Shown here piece by piece: positions 4,707 to 57,587 of a stretch of 64,000 nucleotides of DNA. The position numbers and the translations under genes are program-made. The stretch is from the NCBI RefSeq assembly GCF_913055165.1, contig NZ_CAJXJS010000005.1, forward strand, positions 1 to 64,000, in the 5' to 3' direction. Under the pieces are notes generated by a model, which was given only the letters and a program-made list of their open reading frames with translations, did not search any database and was not told the DNA's origin. Source of the DNA: an uncultured Devosia sp. (GTDB taxonomy: Bacteria > Pseudomonadota > Alphaproteobacteria > Rhizobiales > Devosiaceae). Positions within the stretch are counted from its first letter, which is position 1. Every line of letters begins with the position of its first letter.

Positions 4707-5450
4707 TCATGATCGGGTCGGCCGTTCGGCCATGTTGGAGAGAGCGTTGCGGATGTCCCGCTCGGTGTCCTTGAGATGGAGGCGCATTGCTTCTCCTGCG
4801 GCGCGCGCATTGCCGGCACGAATGGCCTCGAGAATGCGTTGATGCCAGTCAATGGTATCAAGCAGCGTGTGGCCGCGATTGGCGTGACCCCGGCGGCTGA
4901 TCTGGATGCCGTGCCGAAGGGGTGCGGACATGGCCTCGAACAAATAGCCCAGAATGCGGTTGCCACTGGCCAGGGCCACCGCTTCATGGAAGCCGACATC
5001 GAAGTCGTGAAAGCGCCTGTCCGCTTCCGGATCGTCCGCCATGGCCGCTTCGGCGTTTTCGCGCATGCCCTGCAGGGCGCTCTCGATCGCAGCGATGCCG
5101 GCGCGATTGGCCCGCTTTGCGGCCAGCGTTGCACTTTGCACCTCCAGCGACAGCCGCACCTCGACCAAGTCGAACAGCCCCTTGGAGTCATTGTGCATCA
5201 TGGATGTCAGAAAGTCGGCGAAGGCGGCCCCGTCGGGCTCGCGCACCACGGCCTTGCGGCCGCGGGCCACCTCGAGCAGGCCGCGGCCCGCCAGGAGCTT
5301 GACCGCCTCGCGGACAGTGAGGCGACTGACCGCGTAGGTTTCGGCCAGCTCAGCCTCGCTTGGCAGGCTGGCGCCCGGCGTCAACTGGGTCAGAATCTGG
5401 CGGGCGAGGTCGTCCGCCACGACCTCAACTGCGCTGCCGCGCTCGGACAT
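4707..5450 (-). CDS. FadR-subfamily GntR transcriptional regulator (FCD domain)
   Basis: The 247-aa protein has a winged helix-turn-helix at about residues 10-75 (LPSEAELAETYAVSRLTVRE) and an all-helical FCD ligand domain with the metal-site pattern RRFHDFDVGFHEAVALASGN and, later, WHQRILEAIRAGNARAAGEAM. FCD regulators usually respond to sugar acids, hexuronates or other small carboxylates. AGGTAA lies 8 nt before the ATG. A 17-bp perfect palindrome sits 33 bases upstream of the start, as expected for autoregulation and possible control of the divergent chvE operon. Confidence 0.9.
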   Translation of the reverse strand: MSERGSAVEVVADDLARQILTQLTPGASLPSEAELAETYAVSRLTVREAVKLLAGRGLLEVARGRKAVVREPDGAAFADFLTSMMHNDSKGLFDLVEVRLSLEVQSATLAAKRANRAGIAAIESALQGMRENAEAAMADDPEADRRFHDFDVGFHEAVALASGNRILGYLFEAMSAPLRHGIQISRRGHANRGHTLLDTIDWHQRILEAIRAGNARAAGEAMRLHLKDTERDIRNALSNMAERPTRS

Positions 5451-12554: not shown

Positions 12555-13541
12555 TCAGGCGCCCAGGGCGAGAACGTCGCGCGAGGCGAGGTGCAGGGTG
12601 ACAGCATCACCGCGCTGGGGCGGCGTGGAATTGGCGTTGAAGGTGTCGATGCTGAGGCGGACGTCGGCGACATCGACCTTGAGCCGCAATACCGAGCCCA
12701 TGAAGCCGATATCGGAGACGATACCCGACAGGGTGGTGTCGGTATCGGGACGCTGCGTGAGGGAGATCAGTTCCGGCCGAATGGCCCGATCGGGGCCAAA
12801 GCTGGCGGCCGGCAGGGTGTTGAGATGGCCCACGAAGGTAGCGGCAAACCGGGTGGAGGGACGGTTGTAGATGTCGTGAGGCGTGCCGAGCTGTTCGATA
12901 TTGCCGGCGTTCATGACCACGATGCGGTCGGAGATGGACAGGGCCTCTTCCTGGTCATGGGTGACGAAGACAGTGGTGATGCCCAACTCGCGCTGGATGG
13001 CGCGGATTTCCTCACGCAGGGACACACGGATCTTGGCATCCAGCGCTGAAAGCGGCTCATCAAGCAGCAGCAGTCTGGGACGGGGGGCGATGGCACGGGC
13101 GAGGGCCACGCGCTGCTGCTGGCCGCCGCTCATCTCATAAGGGAAGCGCTTCTCGAAGCCGGGCAAGCCGATGAGCTTGAGCATTTCTTCAACGCGGGCG
13201 CGCCGCTGTTCCCGGCCCAGACCGGCGACCTTGAGGCCGAAGCCGATATTGTCCCCCACGGTGAGATTGGGGAACAAGGCATAGGCTTGGAACACCATGC
13301 CGAGGCGGCGCTGATTGGGCCTCAGGGCCGTAATGTCTTCGCCATCGACCTGGATCGTGCCCGAGCTAGGTGTCTCGAAGCCCGCGATCATGCGCAGGAT
13401 GGTAGTCTTGCCACAGCCTGACGGGCCCAGCAGGGATATGAACTCGCCCTTGGAGAAATCGAAGCTGACGCCCTTCACAACGGCGTTCGTGCCATAGTGC
13501 TTGGTCAGGCCTTCAACGCGAAGGAAGTGCTGGTCGCTCAT
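12555..13541 (-). CDS. ABC importer ATP-binding protein (PotA/FbpC type)
   Basis: The 328-aa ATPase shows Walker A GPSGCGKTT, Q-loop VFQAYALFP, signature MSGGQQQRVALARAI, Walker B LLLLDEPLSALD and switch His VFVTHD. A C-terminal TOBE-like regulatory domain follows residue 240. It is the last gene of the operon formed by a binding protein (broken), two permeases and this ATPase. The ATG at 13541 is preferred; a TTG three codons upstream overlaps the previous stop. Polyamine, iron and 2-aminoethylphosphonate transporters all use ATPases of this type, so the substrate is open. Confidence 0.9.
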   Translation of the reverse strand: MSDQHFLRVEGLTKHYGTNAVVKGVSFDFSKGEFISLLGPSGCGKTTILRMIAGFETPSSGTIQVDGEDITALRPNQRRLGMVFQAYALFPNLTVGDNIGFGLKVAGLGREQRRARVEEMLKLIGLPGFEKRFPYEMSGGQQQRVALARAIAPRPRLLLLDEPLSALDAKIRVSLREEIRAIQRELGITTVFVTHDQEEALSISDRIVVMNAGNIEQLGTPHDIYNRPSTRFAATFVGHLNTLPAASFGPDRAIRPELISLTQRPDTDTTLSGIVSDIGFMGSVLRLKVDVADVRLSIDTFNANSTPPQRGDAVTLHLASRDVLALGA

Positions 13542-13546
13542 GGGTT

Positions 13547-14338
13547 TCAATCCGTGACGGGGGCGGAGCGCGGCGCAAAACGCGCCAGAAGCTGAATCAT
13601 GCCCATGGCCCCCCAGGTGATGATGAAGGAGATGATGGCCAGGGCAGAGGGCTCATAGGCCCGGTTGGCGCCGATATTCTGGAGATAGGGCCCAAACGCG
13701 GGCCGGTTCAGCAGGCTCGCAATGGTGAATTCGCCGATGACGATGGCGAAGGTCAGGAACGCGCCGGACAGCACCGCGACGAGAATATTGGGCAGGATGA
13801 TCGATGTGATGATGCGAAGCGTGTCGGCGCCCATGATCTGCGCCGCCTCGGTCAGCGTCTTGACATCGATGGCCCGCATGCCGGTATCGACGGCGCGATA
13901 CATATAGGGCATGGCCAAGGTGACATATCCGCAGATAAGCAGGATGTCGGTGCCCAGCGCCGAGCCGGTGAACGGCACGATCGAGCTCGAATTGTAAAGC
14001 CGGATATAGCCGTAGACGAGCACGATGGCTGGAATGATCAGCGGCAGGAGCGTGATGAATTCCATGAGCGGCCGCAGGTGCGGCAAGCGCAGGCGCACGA
14101 AATAGACTGCCGGAACCACGACGACGATGCCAACCACGATGGCGAAGACACCGATCAGCGCCGAATAGGCAAAGGTTGCCTGGAAGGCCGGGTCGGAAAA
14201 GACGGAGCCATAGCTGTCGAAGCTGTAATAGCCGCGCCGCATCTTAAGCGAGAACTCGAAGGTGGCGATCAGGGGCACCAGGAAATAGGCGGCGCCCAGG
14301 GTGAAGACCAACCAGGGCCAGAATTTCCGGGGCTTCAT
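13547..14338 (-). CDS. ABC transporter permease (PotC-like)
   Basis: The 263-aa inner-membrane permease has about six hydrophobic segments and the coupling EAA loop LTEAAQIMGADTLRIITSIILP. The ATG overlaps the upstream permease stop by 4 bp (ATGA), which fixes the start; the frame runs 82 codons further upstream but only through the neighbouring gene. It pairs with the 14335-15213 permease to form the channel of the importer. Confidence 0.9.
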   Translation of the reverse strand: MKPRKFWPWLVFTLGAAYFLVPLIATFEFSLKMRRGYYSFDSYGSVFSDPAFQATFAYSALIGVFAIVVGIVVVVPAVYFVRLRLPHLRPLMEFITLLPLIIPAIVLVYGYIRLYNSSSIVPFTGSALGTDILLICGYVTLAMPYMYRAVDTGMRAIDVKTLTEAAQIMGADTLRIITSIILPNILVAVLSGAFLTFAIVIGEFTIASLLNRPAFGPYLQNIGANRAYEPSALAIISFIITWGAMGMIQLLARFAPRSAPVTD

Positions 14339-15213
14339 CGCATCCACCTTTCGGCGCGAGCTGAGATCACCAGATAGATGATGTTGGCGAGCGCGGTGAT
14401 GGCGATCATGCCCAGGGCAAGGGCCGCCCCGAGGCCGGGGTTCTGCAGGGCGTCCCCGCGGATTTGGGCGTAGAGCAGGATGGGCACGATGTTCAGTGAG
14501 GAGCCGGTCAAGGCGTAGGCGGTCGCAATCGCGCCGAAGGCATTGGCGAACAAAAGGCTCAGCGTGCCCAGGAAACTGGGCCACAGGATGGGGAAGCCGA
14601 CATAGAGCCAGAACTGCAGCGCACTCGCCCCCAAGGTTTGCGAGGCCTCACTCCACTCCTTTTTGAGCCCGTCGATCGCCGGGGCGATCATCAGGATCAT
14701 CAGGGGAATCTGGAAATAGAGATAGGTGAGGGTGAGACCCCAGAAGGACAGGACATTGAAGCCGGCGCGGTAGATATCGAAGTCGAAAACGGTCTTGAGA
14801 ATGATGGTGACCAGCCCGAGGCGCCCCAGCGTGGAAATGAAGGCGAACGCCAAAGGCACGCCAGCAAAATTCGATGCTACTCCAGAGAAGGTCATGACGG
14901 TCGACCGAAGGCCGTCGGGCAGACGGCCGCGGATGATGGCCAGGGCAATGGCCAGCCCGGCAATGGCGCCCAGCAGTGCGGAAGCACCGGATATACGAAT
15001 GGAAATCCAGTAGGCCGCCAGGATCTGGTCAGTGAAAAGACCGGCGATATTCTCAAGTGTGAACTGGCCGTCGCGGCCGACAAAGGCCGCGCCGACCAGA
15101 TAGAGGGTCGGCAGGATCAGGAACATCACGGCGAAGATGACGAAGGGGGCAACGCCAAGCCACTCGAAAGTGAAGCGTCTGGTTGGGCGTGGTGGTGCAA
15201 CTGTCTCTGTCAT
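14335..15213 (-). CDS. ABC transporter permease (PotB-like)
   Basis: The 292-aa permease has an N-terminal membrane segment at about residues 17-40, several more, and an EAA loop KKEWSEASQTLGASALQFWL. It lies 50 bp after the binding-protein gene, separated by a hairpin. It is the first of two coupled permease genes. Because the operon's binding protein is interrupted, the transporter may be idle or may borrow another binding protein. Confidence 0.9.
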   Translation of the reverse strand: MTETVAPPRPTRRFTFEWLGVAPFVIFAVMFLILPTLYLVGAAFVGRDGQFTLENIAGLFTDQILAAYWISIRISGASALLGAIAGLAIALAIIRGRLPDGLRSTVMTFSGVASNFAGVPLAFAFISTLGRLGLVTIILKTVFDFDIYRAGFNVLSFWGLTLTYLYFQIPLMILMIAPAIDGLKKEWSEASQTLGASALQFWLYVGFPILWPSFLGTLSLLFANAFGAIATAYALTGSSLNIVPILLYAQIRGDALQNPGLGAALALGMIAITALANIIYLVISARAERWMR

Positions 15214-15263: not shown

Positions 15264-16373
15264 TTATTCGGAGACGTTGGCGCCGACGGTGGAGTCCCAG
15301 CCGGTGGTGATCACTTCCTTGGCGGCGTTCTGCTGCTCGATGGTTGGGAACACGGCCTTGGCATAGGCTTCGGCGGGCGGCAGGGCGTCGAGCAGATCTT
15401 GCGGGATGGCGCCGGCTTCGGCCAAGGCGTTGAAGCGGATCGGATGGCAATAGCCTTCCAGCCAGAGGAGCTGACCTTCGTCCGAATAGAGATACTCCAT
15501 CCAGAGCTTGGCGGCATTCGGGTGCGGGGCGTGGGCGGAAATCGCCTGCACATAGACACCGGCGACAACGCCATTGGCAGGGACCACGATCTCGGCCTGC
15601 GGGTTGCCCTCAAAGCTGTCGCGCCAGGCCAGCAGATTGTAGTCCCAGGCGATCAGGACCGGCGAGGTGCCTTGGGCAACCGAAGCGGCCTTGCCGATGA
15701 CGGGCACGAAATTGCCGGCGTCGTTCACGGCCTTGAAGAAGTCGAGGCCGGCCTGGGCGGCGCCTTCGTCCGAACCGGTCTGGGCGTGGCCAGCGGCATA
15801 GACGGCCTGGATGGCCTGATTGGAGGCGCGCGGGTCACCGGCCAGGGCAACCGAATTGGCGTATTCGGGCTTGGTCAGGTCGGACCAGTCGGTGGGCAGG
15901 GTGGAAACAAGGTCAGTGTTCACCAGCATGGCCATGGCGCCGTAGTAGTCGCCATACCAATAGCCTTCAGCGTCCTTGGCGTCGGCCGGGATGTCATCCC
16001 AGGTGGAGACCATATAGGGCTGCAGCAAGCCTTCTTCCTTGGCCTGCGGGCCGAAGGCGAGACCGATATCGAGCACGTCGGGAGCCTGCGGGCCCATATT
16101 GCCGATATTGGCGCGGACGGCTTCAAGCTCGTCGGCAGAGCCGGCATCAGGGTTCAGTTCGTTGACGGTGATGCCCGGATACTTGGCCTTGAAGCCCTCG
16201 ATCACCTTGCCATAGCCGCACCAGGAATGGGGCAGGGCGATGGTCGTCAGCATGCCCTCGGCCTAGGCGGCTTCGTAGAGCGCATCGATGTCGGTTTGTG
16301 CGAAAGCAGGGGCGGTCAGGCTGAGTATGGTCAGCAGCGATACCGAGGCGGTGAGCGCGGACTTGAAGGTCAT
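15264..16373 (-). pseudogene. ABC transporter substrate-binding protein interrupted by an in-frame amber codon
   Basis: Reading from the ATG at 16373 (GAGGGA 9 nt upstream) gives a clean signal peptide ending TAPAFA|QTD, then DIDALYEAA, then TAG at 16263-16265 as codon 37. The same frame continues immediately with AEGMLTTIALPHSWCGYGKV and runs 329 more codons as a typical family-1 solute-binding protein (VLIAWDYNLLAWRDSFEGN, YLYSDEGQLLWLEGY). An AAG or CAG codon changed to TAG explains it. Translation restarting at the ATG four codons later would give a protein without a signal peptide, useless in the periplasm. The rest of the operon is intact. A recent nonsense mutation, sequencing error or readthrough are the options. 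Confidence 0.85.
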
Positions 16374-16494
16374 GTTTGATATCCCTCGTGATGACGATCG
16401 CACGCCCGGAAAGCGGCGAATGGCGAGGGATTATTCGGCGGCCATGTCAGTCCGATAACGTTTCCATGACGGATTTACGACGCAGGCAGCGCAT

Positions 16495-17517
16495 TCACAG
16501 GGTGCGCGGCGCGGGGCCGGAGCTTTCGCGCAGCACCAGCTCGACAGGCCAGAGTTCATGCACCTCTGCGGCTGACTTGCCTGCCAAGATCTGCATGATG
16601 AGTTCGGCAATGCGGGTGCCGGCCTGGCGGATCGAGGAGCGGGTTGTCGACATTGTGGGATACATGTTGTCGGCGTTGAGATAGGGAAACACGTCATCAT
16701 GAGCGATCATGGAAACGTCGCTTCCCAGATGCAGTCCGGCCTGACGGATGGCGCGGAAGACGCCCAACGCGGTCATCATCGATCCGGCCAGAAATGCGGT
16801 GGGGCGTGGTCGGAGTTCGAGCATGGCCTGGGCCATGCGGAAGGCTATTTCGTCCGTGAAGGCCGAATTGCCCACCAGTGCCGGATCCGCATTCAGTCCG
16901 CGAGCGGTCAGTGCGGCCCGATAACCGATCTCGCGATGCTCGGCAAAGGTGCGGCCCCTGACGCCATTGAGGAGCGCAATGCGCCGATGCCCAAGGTCGA
17001 GCAAATGGCTGGTGGCGCGCTCGAGGGCGCTGGTATTGTCGATGTCGAGCCAGGCGACTGGCTGACCAATATTGGTGCGGCCGTGAAGCACGAAGGGGAT
17101 TTTGAGTTCCATCAGCAATTCGGCACGTTCGTCGCTGACGGTCGGCGAATGCAGGATGACTGCGTCAACCTTCTGACTGGCGGCGAGGCGTCGATAGGCG
17201 GCCAGTTCCTCCTGATGATTGGCGACCGTTGAGACTAACATGTCGATTTCCTGGCTGGCCATATAGCTGCCGACGCCCGAAAGAAACTCGGACATATGCG
17301 GCCCCAGTTCATCGGCACCACGCAGGACCAGGCCGACCGCGCCAGCGCGGCCGGTGGCCAGCCTGAGGGCGCTGGCATTGGGGCGATAGCCGAGCAGATT
17401 GGCAGCCTCCGCAACCCGGCGGCGGGTGGCTTCGTTGACTTCCGGATAGCCGTTGAGCGCACGGCTGACCGTGGTTTGCGACAGGCCGAGGTGTTCGGCG
17501 AGGTCTTTCAGTCTCAT
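16495..17517 (-). CDS. thuR: LacI-family regulator of the thu operon
   Basis: The 340-aa product has an N-terminal helix-turn-helix LKDLAEHLGLSQTTVSRALN with the minor-groove hinge region RPNASALRLATGR, then a periplasmic-binding-like effector domain (AGAVGLVLRG, ALLNGVRGRTFAEHREIGYR). It is divergent from thuEFGKAB, as ThuR is in Sinorhizobium, where it represses trehalose/maltose uptake. The start at 17517 follows the usual LacI N-terminus; an ATG six codons upstream (17535) is possible. AAAGCGCTTT operators lie in the shared promoter region. Confidence 0.88.
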   Translation of the reverse strand: MRLKDLAEHLGLSQTTVSRALNGYPEVNEATRRRVAEAANLLGYRPNASALRLATGRAGAVGLVLRGADELGPHMSEFLSGVGSYMASQEIDMLVSTVANHQEELAAYRRLAASQKVDAVILHSPTVSDERAELLMELKIPFVLHGRTNIGQPVAWLDIDNTSALERATSHLLDLGHRRIALLNGVRGRTFAEHREIGYRAALTARGLNADPALVGNSAFTDEIAFRMAQAMLELRPRPTAFLAGSMMTALGVFRAIRQAGLHLGSDVSMIAHDDVFPYLNADNMYPTMSTTRSSIRQAGTRIAELIMQILAGKSAAEVHELWPVELVLRESSGPAPRTL

Positions 17518-17654
17518 AGCGGCGATACGGCCCATGCGGTTGGATATCCCGTCAGCTCTCCGCAGGGCGCGCGAATAACCCGGTTGTTCCAGCCATTAGG
17601 GCAGGCGGCACCCTTTGAACAGGGGGCTCAGCCTTTCTCCTCCCAAAGGCATTC

Positions 17655-17880: not shown

Positions 17881-18008
17881 CAAACTGAACGCCCTAGAAC
17901 GGTTCGGTGGGGTGCTTTTGAGGGGGAGGAATGTCTGGTCCGGCGCAGTTGCGCAGGGCCTGAACAGTGTGCCTCTCCCGCGACGTATTATTCTCGGGAG
18001 GATTTCTA

Positions 18009-19277
18009 ATGAAATTGAAGACGCTGCTCGTTTCGATGATGGCGAGCGTAACCCTGGTGGCCGGCGCCGCCCAGGCGGCCGAATTGTCGATTGTGTCGGG
18101 CGACACCGGCAACGGCCTGGCCTTCCTGCGTAGCCAGCTCGATCGTTTCGAAGCTGAAACCGGTCACACCGTCACGGTCGTGCCCATGCCCTCGTCCACC
18201 ACCGACCAGTTCGGCCAGTATCGTCTGTGGCTTGCCGCCGGCAATACGGACATCGACGTCTATCAGACCGACGTGATCTGGGCGCCGCAATTGGCTGATC
18301 AGTTCCTCGATCTGACCGAGGCTGCTGCCGACGTCGTCGATCAGCACTTCCCCTCGATCATCGAGTCGCAGACTGTGGACGGCAAGCTCGTCGCCCTGCC
18401 GGCTTTCACCGATGCGCCGGCCCTCTACTACCGCAAGGACCTGCTGGAGAAATACGGCAAGGAAGTTCCCACCACCTGGTCCGAGCTGGAAGCGACCGCC
18501 AAGGAGATCATGGACGCCGAGCGCGCTGCCGGTAACTCCGAAATGTGGGGCTTCGTGTTCCAGGGCAATGCCTATGAAGGCCTGACCTGCGATGCTCTGG
18601 AATGGGTCGTGTCCAATGGCGGCGGCCAGATCGTCGAGCCCGATGGGACCATCTCGATCAACAATGAGCAGGCTGCTGCTGCGATTGATCGCGCTGCGGG
18701 TTGGGTCGGCACCATCGCGCCGGAAGGCGTGCTGGGGTACATGGAAGAAGAGAGCCGCGGCGTGTGGCAGCTTGGCAATGCCGTGTTCCACCGCAACTGG
18801 CCCTACGCTTACTCGCTCGGCAATGGCGACGATTCTGCCGTGAAGGGCCTGTTTGACGTGGCACCGCTGCCAATGGGTGATGGCGAAGGTGCGCGCTCGG
18901 CCGCTACATTGGGTGGCTGGAACGTTGCTGTGTCCAAGTACTCGCAGGACCCGGAAGCGGCCATTGAACTGGCCAAGTTCCTGGCCTCGGCGGATGTTCA
19001 GAAGGAACGCGCTCTGAGCCAGTCCAACCTGCCCACCATCGAAGCGCTCTATGACGATGCCGACATCGCGGCCGCTCAGCCGATCATCCCGAACTGGAAG
19101 GAAATCTTCCAGAACGCGGTGCCGCGTCCGTCCGCTCCGACCAAGACCGACTACAACGAGGTTTCCTCGCTGTTCTGGAGCGCGGTGCATGACACCCTGT
19201 CCGGCAATGGTTCTGCTGCGGAGAACCTCGAAATCCTCGAGGCCGATCTGCAGGATCTGAAGGGCGACGCCTGGTAA
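18009..19277 (+). CDS. thuE: Trehalose/maltose-type ABC substrate-binding protein ThuE
   Basis: The 422-aa protein has a Sec signal peptide ending GAAQA|AELS near residue 24. It is a family-1 extracellular solute-binding protein: LSIVSGDTGNGLAFLRSQLD at the N-terminus, GNTDIDVYQTDVIWAPQLAD, LVALPAFTDAPALYYRKDLL and GGWNVAVSKYSQDPEAAIEL. Gene order thuR-E-F-G-K-A-B matches the Sinorhizobium operon, in which ThuE binds trehalose, maltose or sucrose. The start is ATG with GGGAGGA 7 nt upstream; the frame is open further upstream, but the signal peptide begins here. Confidence 0.9.
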   Translation: MKLKTLLVSMMASVTLVAGAAQAAELSIVSGDTGNGLAFLRSQLDRFEAETGHTVTVVPMPSSTTDQFGQYRLWLAAGNTDIDVYQTDVIWAPQLADQFLDLTEAAADVVDQHFPSIIESQTVDGKLVALPAFTDAPALYYRKDLLEKYGKEVPTTWSELEATAKEIMDAERAAGNSEMWGFVFQGNAYEGLTCDALEWVVSNGGGQIVEPDGTISINNEQAAAAIDRAAGWVGTIAPEGVLGYMEEESRGVWQLGNAVFHRNWPYAYSLGNGDDSAVKGLFDVAPLPMGDGEGARSAATLGGWNVAVSKYSQDPEAAIELAKFLASADVQKERALSQSNLPTIEALYDDADIAAAQPIIPNWKEIFQNAVPRPSAPTKTDYNEVSSLFWSAVHDTLSGNGSAAENLEILEADLQDLKGDAW

Positions 19278-19300
19278 GTCCTCCCGGCGGCCTTAGCAGG

Positions 19301-19331
19301 GCGGGCGGCCGGGGTTTACCCTGCCGCCCGC
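19301..19331 (+). terminator. Intercistronic hairpin between thuE and thuF
   Basis: GCGGGCGGC (19301-19309) pairs perfectly with GCCGCCCGC (19323-19331), 24 bases after the thuE stop and without a T-tract. It probably stabilises the thuE message and keeps binding protein in excess over the membrane parts. Confidence 0.6.
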
Positions 19332-19368
19332 TCGGCAATTCTAAATACACTGGGGGAGGAGAACGAAT

Positions 19369-20348
<980 letters not shown>

Positions 20349-20349
<1 letters not shown>

Positions 20350-21194
20350 TGGGCACGACCTTCGATCTTTGGAAATTCACCAAGTCGGCAGCGTTCTATG
20401 CGCTGGTGCTGTTCATCGTGGTGGTGTCGGTCTTTCCGTTCTACTACGCCATTCTGACCAGCCTGAAATCCGGTACCGACCTGTTCCGAGTGACTTACTG
20501 GCCGACCTCGCTGAGCTTTGACAATTTCCGGCAGGTCTTCACGCAGGGCGCTTTCCCGCGCAATCTGCTGAACTCGGTCTTTGTCGCCACGGTCACGGTG
20601 ATCCTGGCGCTGTTCCTGGCGGTCACCGCATCATTCGCGCTGAGCCGCGTGCGGTTCCGTGGCCGCGGCCTGTTGCTGATGACCATTCTGGCCGTGTCCA
20701 TGTTCCCGCAGATCGCGGTGCTGGCGGGTCTGTTCGAAGTGATCCGGTTCCTCGGCATCTACAATACGCCCTGGGCGCTGATCTTCGCCTATACCATCTT
20801 CACCCTACCGTTCACCGTCTGGGTGCTGACCACGTTCATGCGGGACCTGCCGGTGGAAATTGAGGAAGCGGCCATCGTCGATGGAGCGACGCCATGGGTC
20901 ATCATCACTCAGGTATTCATGCCGCTGATGTGGCCGGCTCTGGTGACCACGGGCCTGTTGGCCTTCATCGCGGCCTGGAACGAGTTCCTGTTCGCGCTGA
21001 CCTTCACTGTCTCGAACGAAACCCGAACCGTGCCGGTGGCTATCGCCCTGCTCTCGGGCGGTTCTCAATATGAAATCCCGTGGGGCATCATCATGGCGGC
21101 TTCGGTGGTCGTGACCGTACCGCTGGTGGCCCTGGTGCTGGTGTTCCAGCGCAAGATCGTGTCCGGTCTGACCGCCGGCGGCGTCAAAGGATAA
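20349..21194 (+). CDS. thuG: Trehalose/maltose ABC permease ThuG
   Basis: The 281-aa MalG-type permease has an N-terminal membrane segment at residues 15-35 and the EAA loop [20 protein letters not shown], ending in the usual short basic C-terminus [15 protein letters not shown]. It forms the second half of the channel with ThuF. The ATG overlaps the thuF stop. Confidence 0.92.
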
Positions 21195-21206
21195 GGAGAA
21201 GCCAAA

Positions 21207-22211
21207 ATGGCATCAATCGAACTGCGCAATATCCGGAAGTCCTTCGGCGCCGTGAACGTCATCAAGGGCGTGGACCTGGAAGTCCGCAAGGGCGAGTTCA
21301 TGGTCTTTGTCGGCCCGTCGGGCTGCGGCAAGTCCACGCTGCTGCGACTGATCTCCGGCCTTGAAGACATTACTTCAGGCGAAATGCTGTTTGACGGCAA
21401 GGTGGTCAATGCGCTGACCCCGTCCAAGCGGGGCATTGCCATGGTGTTCCAGTCCTATGCGCTCTACCCGCATATGACCGTCTACGAGAACATGGCGTTC
21501 GGACTGAAGCTTGAAAAGGGCCATAGCAAGGAAGCCATTCGTCAGCGCGTTGAAAAGGCCGCCGACATGCTGCAGATCCGGCAATATCTGGATCGCCTGC
21601 CCAAGCAGCTTTCGGGCGGTCAGCGCCAGCGCGTCGCCATCGGCCGTGCCATTACCCGCGATCCCAAGGTCTTCCTGTTCGACGAGCCCCTCTCGAACCT
21701 GGACGCGGCCTTGCGTGTGGCCACGCGCATCGAGATCGCCAAGCTGCATGAAGGCATGCACGACGTCACCATGATCTACGTGACCCATGACCAAGTGGAG
21801 GCCATGACCCTGGCCGACCGCATCTGCGTGTTGCGCGACGGGCTGGTCGAGCAGGTGGGCACGCCCATGGAGCTTTATGAAAAGCCCGACAGCATTTTCG
21901 TGGCCGGTTTCATCGGCTCGCCCAAGATGAATTTCCTCACCGGGGAAAAGGCCGCCGCCTTCAATTGCACCACGCTGGGTATCCGGGGCGAGCATATGCT
22001 GGTCAAGCCTGACGGCATCTGGGAGGGCGAGGTCATCCACACCGAAAACCTCGGTGCGGACACCTATGTCTATCTCGAAATGGGGCAGGAAGAGCCGATC
22101 GTGGTTCGCCTCGAAGGCGCCATGCAGCACCCCAGCGGATCAAAGCTGCGGGTGTCGCCCATGGAGGATCGCATCCACCGTTTCGATGAGGCCGGCAAGC
22201 CGATCCGCTGA
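21207..22211 (+). CDS. thuK: Trehalose/maltose ABC ATP-binding protein ThuK
   Basis: The 334-aa MalK/UgpC-type ATPase shows Walker [11 protein letters not shown]-loop [10 protein letters not shown], signature [15 protein letters not shown], Walker [16 protein letters not shown] and [15 protein letters not shown]. The C-terminal OB/TOBE domain (residues about 235-334) is shorter than in MalK. AAGGAG lies just upstream of the ATG, 12 bp after thuG. It drives ThuEFG. Confidence 0.93.
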
Positions 22212-32304: not shown

Positions 32305-32592
32305 GCGCTGCTCCTGCACACCCCTCATGCGGCTGGCGCGCTTGCTATTTGCCGCCAACTCGCCCATATGGGCATGACGTCACGGCAGAATGGCCGTCGA
32401 TGGACTTCTCTTCTTGCTTCTGCGGTGAGCGGCGAAGTCGACCCGAATACCAGATTGGCCGAGGAGCCAGCGGTTCGGGTTTGAGCCAGCACCCGCGCGA
32501 TACCCCCTATCGCCCGATTGCATTATTCAACTGCGCCTTCCGCTGTCGGAGTGGCGCTCGCGCGATTTCGCGCCAAAGGAAAGACAATTAGT

Positions 32593-54251: not shown

Positions 54252-55330
54252 TGCAGTTTCGTCTGGAAAAGCGTCCCGAACCGTCACGCCTGATGCTCTA
54301 TGGGACCCCGGTGGCCGCCGTGGTGCTGACCATGTTCATCGGAGCGATCATCTTTTCGCTGATCGGCTATGACGGGATCGGCGCTGTGCGGGAGATATTC
54401 TTCACGCCCCTGACCAATGCCTTCAAGTGGCAGGATCTGGGCGTGAAGGCCGCGCCGCTGATCATCATCGGAGTGGGGCTTTCGATCGCCTATCGCGCCA
54501 ATGTCTGGAATATCGGCGCCGAAGGTCAGTACATCATGGGCGGGCTGGCCGCCCCCTGGGGGGCACTGGCCAGCCACGGGGCGGGGGGATGGTGGACCCT
54601 GCCGGCCATGATGATCGCGGGCGTGGCCGGCGGCGCTGCCTATGCAGCAATTCCTGCCCTGCTGCGCACCCGGCTCAACGTCAATGAAATCCTGACCTCG
54701 CTGATGCTGACCTATGCGTCGGTGCAACTGATCTACTATCTGGTCCGCGCGCCGTGGAAAGACCCCATGGGCATGGGCTTTCCGCAGACGCGGCGCTTTG
54801 CCAGCGAGGCTTTGCTGCCCAACATCATCCCGGGCACGATCGTACATGCCGGTGTGCCCATCGCGATCATCGTGGCGCTGGTGGCCTGGTTCATCATGAC
54901 CCGGTCCGTGTTCGGCTATCAGATGCGGGTCGTGGGCGCGGCGCCCCATGCGGCCCGCTATGGCGGGTTCTCCGAAAACAAGACCATCTGGCTGGCGCTG
55001 TTGGTGAGTGGCGGCCTGGCGGGCCTGGCCGGCATGCTGGAGGTTGCCGGGCCGTTCCAGCGCATGGTGCCGGGCTTCCCCACCAATTACGGCTTCACGG
55101 CCATCATCGTTGCCTTTTTGGGGCGGCTCAATCCGCTGGGGGTTATTTTCGCCGGCATTGTGATGGCCATCACCTTTGTCGGCGGCGAGATTGCTCAGAC
55201 CACGATCGGGCTGTCCAACTCAGCAACAGGGGTGTTCCAGGCGATGATGCTGTTCTTCCTGCTCGCCGGGGACATTCTGGTGCGCTACCGCGTCCGCCGC
55301 GTGACGCCGCAGGTGGAGGCGCGCGCATGA
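54251..55330 (+). CDS. Purine/nucleoside ABC transporter permease 1 (NupB-like)
   Basis: The 359-aa inner-membrane permease of the branched-chain/nucleoside class carries YRANVWNIGAEGQYIMGGLA and LNVNEILTSLMLTYASVQLI, typical of YufP/NupB proteins, and about nine hydrophobic segments. Its ATG overlaps the ATPase stop by one base and its stop overlaps the next permease (ATGA). Confidence 0.9.
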   Translation: MQFRLEKRPEPSRLMLYGTPVAAVVLTMFIGAIIFSLIGYDGIGAVREIFFTPLTNAFKWQDLGVKAAPLIIIGVGLSIAYRANVWNIGAEGQYIMGGLAAPWGALASHGAGGWWTLPAMMIAGVAGGAAYAAIPALLRTRLNVNEILTSLMLTYASVQLIYYLVRAPWKDPMGMGFPQTRRFASEALLPNIIPGTIVHAGVPIAIIVALVAWFIMTRSVFGYQMRVVGAAPHAARYGGFSENKTIWLALLVSGGLAGLAGMLEVAGPFQRMVPGFPTNYGFTAIIVAFLGRLNPLGVIFAGIVMAITFVGGEIAQTTIGLSNSATGVFQAMMLFFLLAGDILVRYRVRRVTPQVEARA

Positions 55331-57570: not shown

Positions 57571-57587
57571 AATAGAAGGGGACGACA

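Follow-up and report, generated by a model that had tools for sequence, protein, structure and literature searches.

An in-frame TAG interrupting an ABC-importer binding-protein gene at codon 37 in an uncultured Devosia species: a singleton nonsense difference

The closest described counterparts of an otherwise intact gene with one premature stop codon are the single-mutation pseudogenes of bacteria. According to Cooley and Wright (2024; PMC11017572), most pseudogenes contain a single mutation, assembly errors account for many of the internal-stop pseudogenes in public assemblies, and six of ten pseudogenes selected in a public genome proved to be errors; the same authors describe no clear signature that distinguishes genuine from spurious pseudogenes. 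A second set of described systems comprises amber recoding, in which TAG is decoded by a suppressor tRNA, as pyrrolysine or as a sense codon. The gene analysed here resembles the single-mutation pseudogenes (PMC11017572) in having one internal stop, no other decay and intact orthologues in the relatives examined, and it adds nothing distinctive to them. It shares with amber recoding an in-frame TAG where relatives have Lys, but differs in that the TAG is not conserved, release factor RF1 is present, TAG is used as a terminator, and neither a CUA tRNA, among the 39 tRNA matches of the draft, nor PylS was found. The encoded protein is itself comparable to SBP_bac_6 binding proteins such as that of PDB entry 5t1p, given its profile match and the two permease genes and one ATPase gene that follow, and differs from them in that none of the NCBIfam models scored above its own cut-off for this protein.

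The window, by which we mean the whole 64,000-nucleotide stretch of DNA that was analysed, contains the interrupted gene within an importer operon with the following features.

15264–16373, minus strand: gene for an ABC-importer substrate-binding protein (Pfam SBP_bac_6 / SBP_bac_1), broken at codon 37; assigned from translation, Pfam and near full-length alignment with 51 uninterrupted copies from the genus
16263–16265, minus strand: in-frame TAG, where relatives have AAG (Lys); from translation and comparison with relatives
16299–16373, minus strand: signal peptide of 25 residues, judged by eye, with a similar stretch in relatives
15264–16253, minus strand: open frame from an internal ATG, whose product would lack the signal peptide if translation restarted there
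14335–15213, minus strand: permease 1, same operon, intact; open reading frame list and Pfam BPD_transp_1
13547–14338, minus strand: permease 2, intact; the ATG at 14338 is the likely start, so that the gene overlaps permease 1 at its end; BPD_transp_1 matched using a longer form of this frame
12555–13550, minus strand: ABC ATPase, intact; Pfam ABC_tran and TOBE_2
16495–17535, minus strand: intact gene for a LacI-type regulator, located upstream of the operon; open reading frame list and Pfam

Translation of 15264–16373 on the minus strand yields 36 residues, MTFKSALTASVSLLTILSLTAPAFAQTDIDALYEAA, followed by the stop and then by AEGM and the remainder of the protein to its end, with no second stop in the frame. 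The initial annotation had placed a TAG at codon 37, just after the signal peptide of a single undamaged frame, and this description was borne out. Its figure of 329 downstream codons holds as a count from the internal ATG at 16253, whereas the stretch that remains open directly after the TAG is 332 codons. It had also located this ATG correctly and noted that a product initiated there would be cytoplasmic. Upstream of the first ATG is a Shine-Dalgarno-like GAGGG; the internal ATG, 9 bases past the TAG, also has a GAGGG close before it, with that of the upstream ATG being the better spaced. The proteins of relatives align straight through the stop in a single frame, the nearest at 95%, so that the interrupted frame is not a product of chance. 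Only across the TAG are the export signal and the binding domain in frame with each other.

The portion of the protein after the stop matched SBP_bac_6 (PF13343) with a score of 108.1 bits, compared with a curated cut-off of 24.6, and permease and ATPase genes adjoin it, as expected of an ABC-importer binding protein. The nearest sequence of solved structure was that of 5t1p, a periplasmic ABC binding protein (E = 3.4e-46). The flanking permease and ATPase genes had been described as intact, and their frames are indeed open and their Pfam families matched. For the ATPase, the best NCBIfam match, to PhnT2, scored 404.2 bits and fell short of the cut-off of 457.7. When four genes were scored for codon usage, the binding-protein gene ranked highest (0.40 per codon versus 0.29 to 0.34), which would fit high expression. 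A scan for promoters and terminators found no more of either than were present in shuffled sequences. On the plus strand, an antisense open frame of 326 amino acids (15399–16379) covers nearly the whole of the interrupted gene; shadow frames of this kind are numerous in the sequence, whose GC content is 62%. Farther upstream, a divergent second ABC import operon at 17967–22211 on the plus strand appears intact, with a binding protein, two permeases and an ATPase named by eye.

The initial annotation asked whether homologues have Lys or Gln at the interrupted codon, and the answer is Lys. Eighty named loci were fetched, and four of these (L004, L009, L020 and L030) had no anchor motif and were left unread; in the remaining 76, the homologous residue was Lys in 74 (73 AAG and one AAA), with one Glu and one Asn, and none of the 76 had a stop. 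At the genus level, AAG was present in all 29 distinct copies, with protein identities of 71.5 to 94.6%; the 36 rows from which these codons were read comprise the 29 copies and seven re-fetched stretches of the same genomes, and the organisms of the named loci and of the genus genomes searched may overlap in part. A search of 75 genomes of the genus gave a match at E ≤ 1e-100 in 52, of which the genome of the window has one TAG and the other 51 have no internal stop. The TAG at codon 37 is therefore a singleton among the genomes searched, a lineage-specific stop with intact orthologues in relatives such as is found for a recent nonsense pseudogene, and a single base (AAG to TAG) is the whole difference between the allele of the window and the genus copies at this codon. 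The closest named copy found was that of Devosia equisanguinis (88% identity), and several further near copies are also from Devosia. No close second copy was found in the same genome, the only other match being 26% identical. No match at E ≤ 1e-100 was obtained for 23 of the 75 genus genomes, or for 20 of the 68 more complete ones, and on the basis of this distribution the binding-protein gene looks dispensable in the genus.

The interrupted gene has not decayed. Compared with three near relatives, the binding protein of the window's genome has 5 private residues among 366, the stop included, and those of relatives G002, G001 and G044 have 8, 7 and 7, respectively. Three of the five are in the signal peptide, one is the stop, and one is in the mature part. 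At codons identical in the three relatives, the gene differs by 27 synonymous changes and one non-synonymous change, which is the stop; given that this count takes only such codons, four further private differences appear when residues are compared. The corresponding synonymous and non-synonymous counts were 48 and 2 for permease 1, 29 and 1 for the ATPase, 33 and 2 for the regulator, and 19 and 8 for permease 2 with its start taken as 14338. The dN/dS value for the binding-protein gene relative to its nearest relative, G002, was 0.054. With 5 private residues in 366, relaxed selection after inactivation, which is expected of older pseudogenes only, was not seen, and, judged from these comparisons, the binding-protein gene was under selection up to the present. 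Given that there is no decay, the stop either has arisen extremely recently or is absent from the organism. In G002 itself, the ATPase has 37 private residues, many of them C-terminal, compared with 7 in the genome of the window (12555–13550), and perhaps the C-terminal end of the ATPase has been replaced in that lineage.

Of the three explanations put forward in the initial annotation, a recent nonsense change and a sequencing error survive, and readthrough is poorly supported. The reading to which we give slightly better than an even chance, on the strength of the sequence comparisons, is a very recent and real nonsense mutation, AAG to TAG at the codon for Lys-37, in a periplasmic binding-protein gene that is otherwise normal. 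According to this reading, a single base change converted the Lys codon, RF1 would terminate translation after 36 residues, most of which are signal peptide, and any product restarted from the internal ATG would lack that peptide. Export would be abolished, and the importer would be left without its binding protein. No copy of the gene is seen in about three in ten genus genomes, so that its loss may be tolerated.

The alternative, to which we assign somewhat less than an even chance, is an error in sequencing or assembly, or a variant from a minority strain that entered the consensus, with the organism itself having a sense codon and a working gene. An error would likewise leave one isolated base difference and no decay, and the assembly is a draft (3,874,155 bases in 123 contigs, 94.42% complete, with 2.29% contamination). 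Weighing on the other side is the scarcity of similar stops elsewhere in the genome. A coding-potential scan of 464 kb flagged eight stops, among which only that at 16265 was within a gene when read by eye, the other seven being junctions between genes as judged in the same manner; the scan detected 200 of 828 simulated sites and thus sets only a loose bound on the rate of such stops. The same scan applied to 410 kb of five relatives flagged seven stops, one of which, in G044, looked to be in-gene. This apparent in-gene stop, so read by eye, is a TAA at joined position 16031 (stretches L170, L171, L156, L172 and L173) and lies in a different gene. Because the scan of relatives also gave one such stop, the rate of in-gene stops in the window's genome is not unusual.

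A comparison of the window with seven relatives, in which 189 of 384 open reading frames passed the filters, likewise gave no other in-gene stop among matches of at least 77% identity. The stop at 16265 was flagged with five relatives. The flagged stops that were examined were those in matches of at least 77% identity together with that at 32482, and those below 77% were taken, without individual checks, as antisense or shifted shadow frames. Stops flagged at 57573, 56273, 7111, 20046, 20331, 4669, 44588, 32482 and 25092 lie upstream of the start used by the gene in the window, that at 5335 is antisense to an intact GntR/FCD regulator, and that at 54685 belongs to a frame running over into a neighbouring gene. 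Four rows with a change of frame were also flagged, and two of these were read as overlaps between neighbouring genes, from the pattern of mismatches and the borders of the open reading frames. On balance, we favour a real recent mutation over an error by a small margin; sequence alone cannot separate them.

Programmed or suppressor readthrough, in which TAG would be decoded as an amino acid to give the complete exported protein, perhaps in reduced or regulated amounts, is highly improbable. Purifying selection has kept the downstream frame fully intact, which is what continued synthesis of the product would predict, but none of the 51 other copies in the genus has the in-frame TAG, which is thus present in 1 of the 52 genus genomes with the gene. 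RF1 is encoded in the genome, with prfA matched at 512.9 bits (cut-off, 423.25), and TAG is a normal terminator that ends 34 of 115 open reading frames of at least 400 amino acids in the 464 kb examined. On these two observations, together with the relatives, a change of code for TAG is rejected. The tRNA family search gave 39 matches, for 37 of which ARAGORN assigned anticodons; the two remaining tRNAs, cut by contig starts, were read by eye as GAA and GTC. None of the 39 has a CUA anticodon, in a draft set that is incomplete to the extent that a Tyr tRNA was not found either. The best match to PylS scored 26.2 bits, far below the cut-off of 178.15, and pyrrolysine coding is rejected on this basis; among 14 controls for the PylS model, matches were obtained in 13 and exceeded the cut-off in one. 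The 83 bases after the stop showed no unusual folding (RNA fold z = +1.2, with 176 of 200 shuffles folding at least as well). A narrower version, in which a real TAG is read through sufficiently for a working importer by means of local context or of a CUA tRNA encoded where the genome has not been assembled, such that export of the binding protein would be throttled at a single stop only in this species, is more improbable still.

Least probable of all, to the point of being barely credible, is that translation truly begins at the internal ATG (16253) and that the protein is cytoplasmic or exported by another route, as the initial annotation had allowed under a misread start: the proximity of this ATG to the TAG and the GAGGG close before it would favour such a start, but in the genus copies the frame continues unbroken from the upstream ATG across the signal peptide, nearly all members of the wider named set have an upstream signal peptide in frame as judged by eye (some with other start codons), the upstream ATG has the better-spaced GAGGG, and the internal Met is not conserved, with relatives having Met, Gln, Thr or another residue, often Gln or Thr, at this position. 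The exceptions in the wider set, L031 and L062, have no signal peptide in the binding-protein frame by eye, perhaps as a result of frameshifts or sequence errors.

The feature is thus an ordinary singleton nonsense difference. If the stop is an error, it serves as a reminder to check reads before a pseudogene or readthrough is named, and neither outcome raises a new decoding question. If the recent nonsense mutation is real, this strain is one in which an importer has just been lost, as happens routinely when bacteria evolve.
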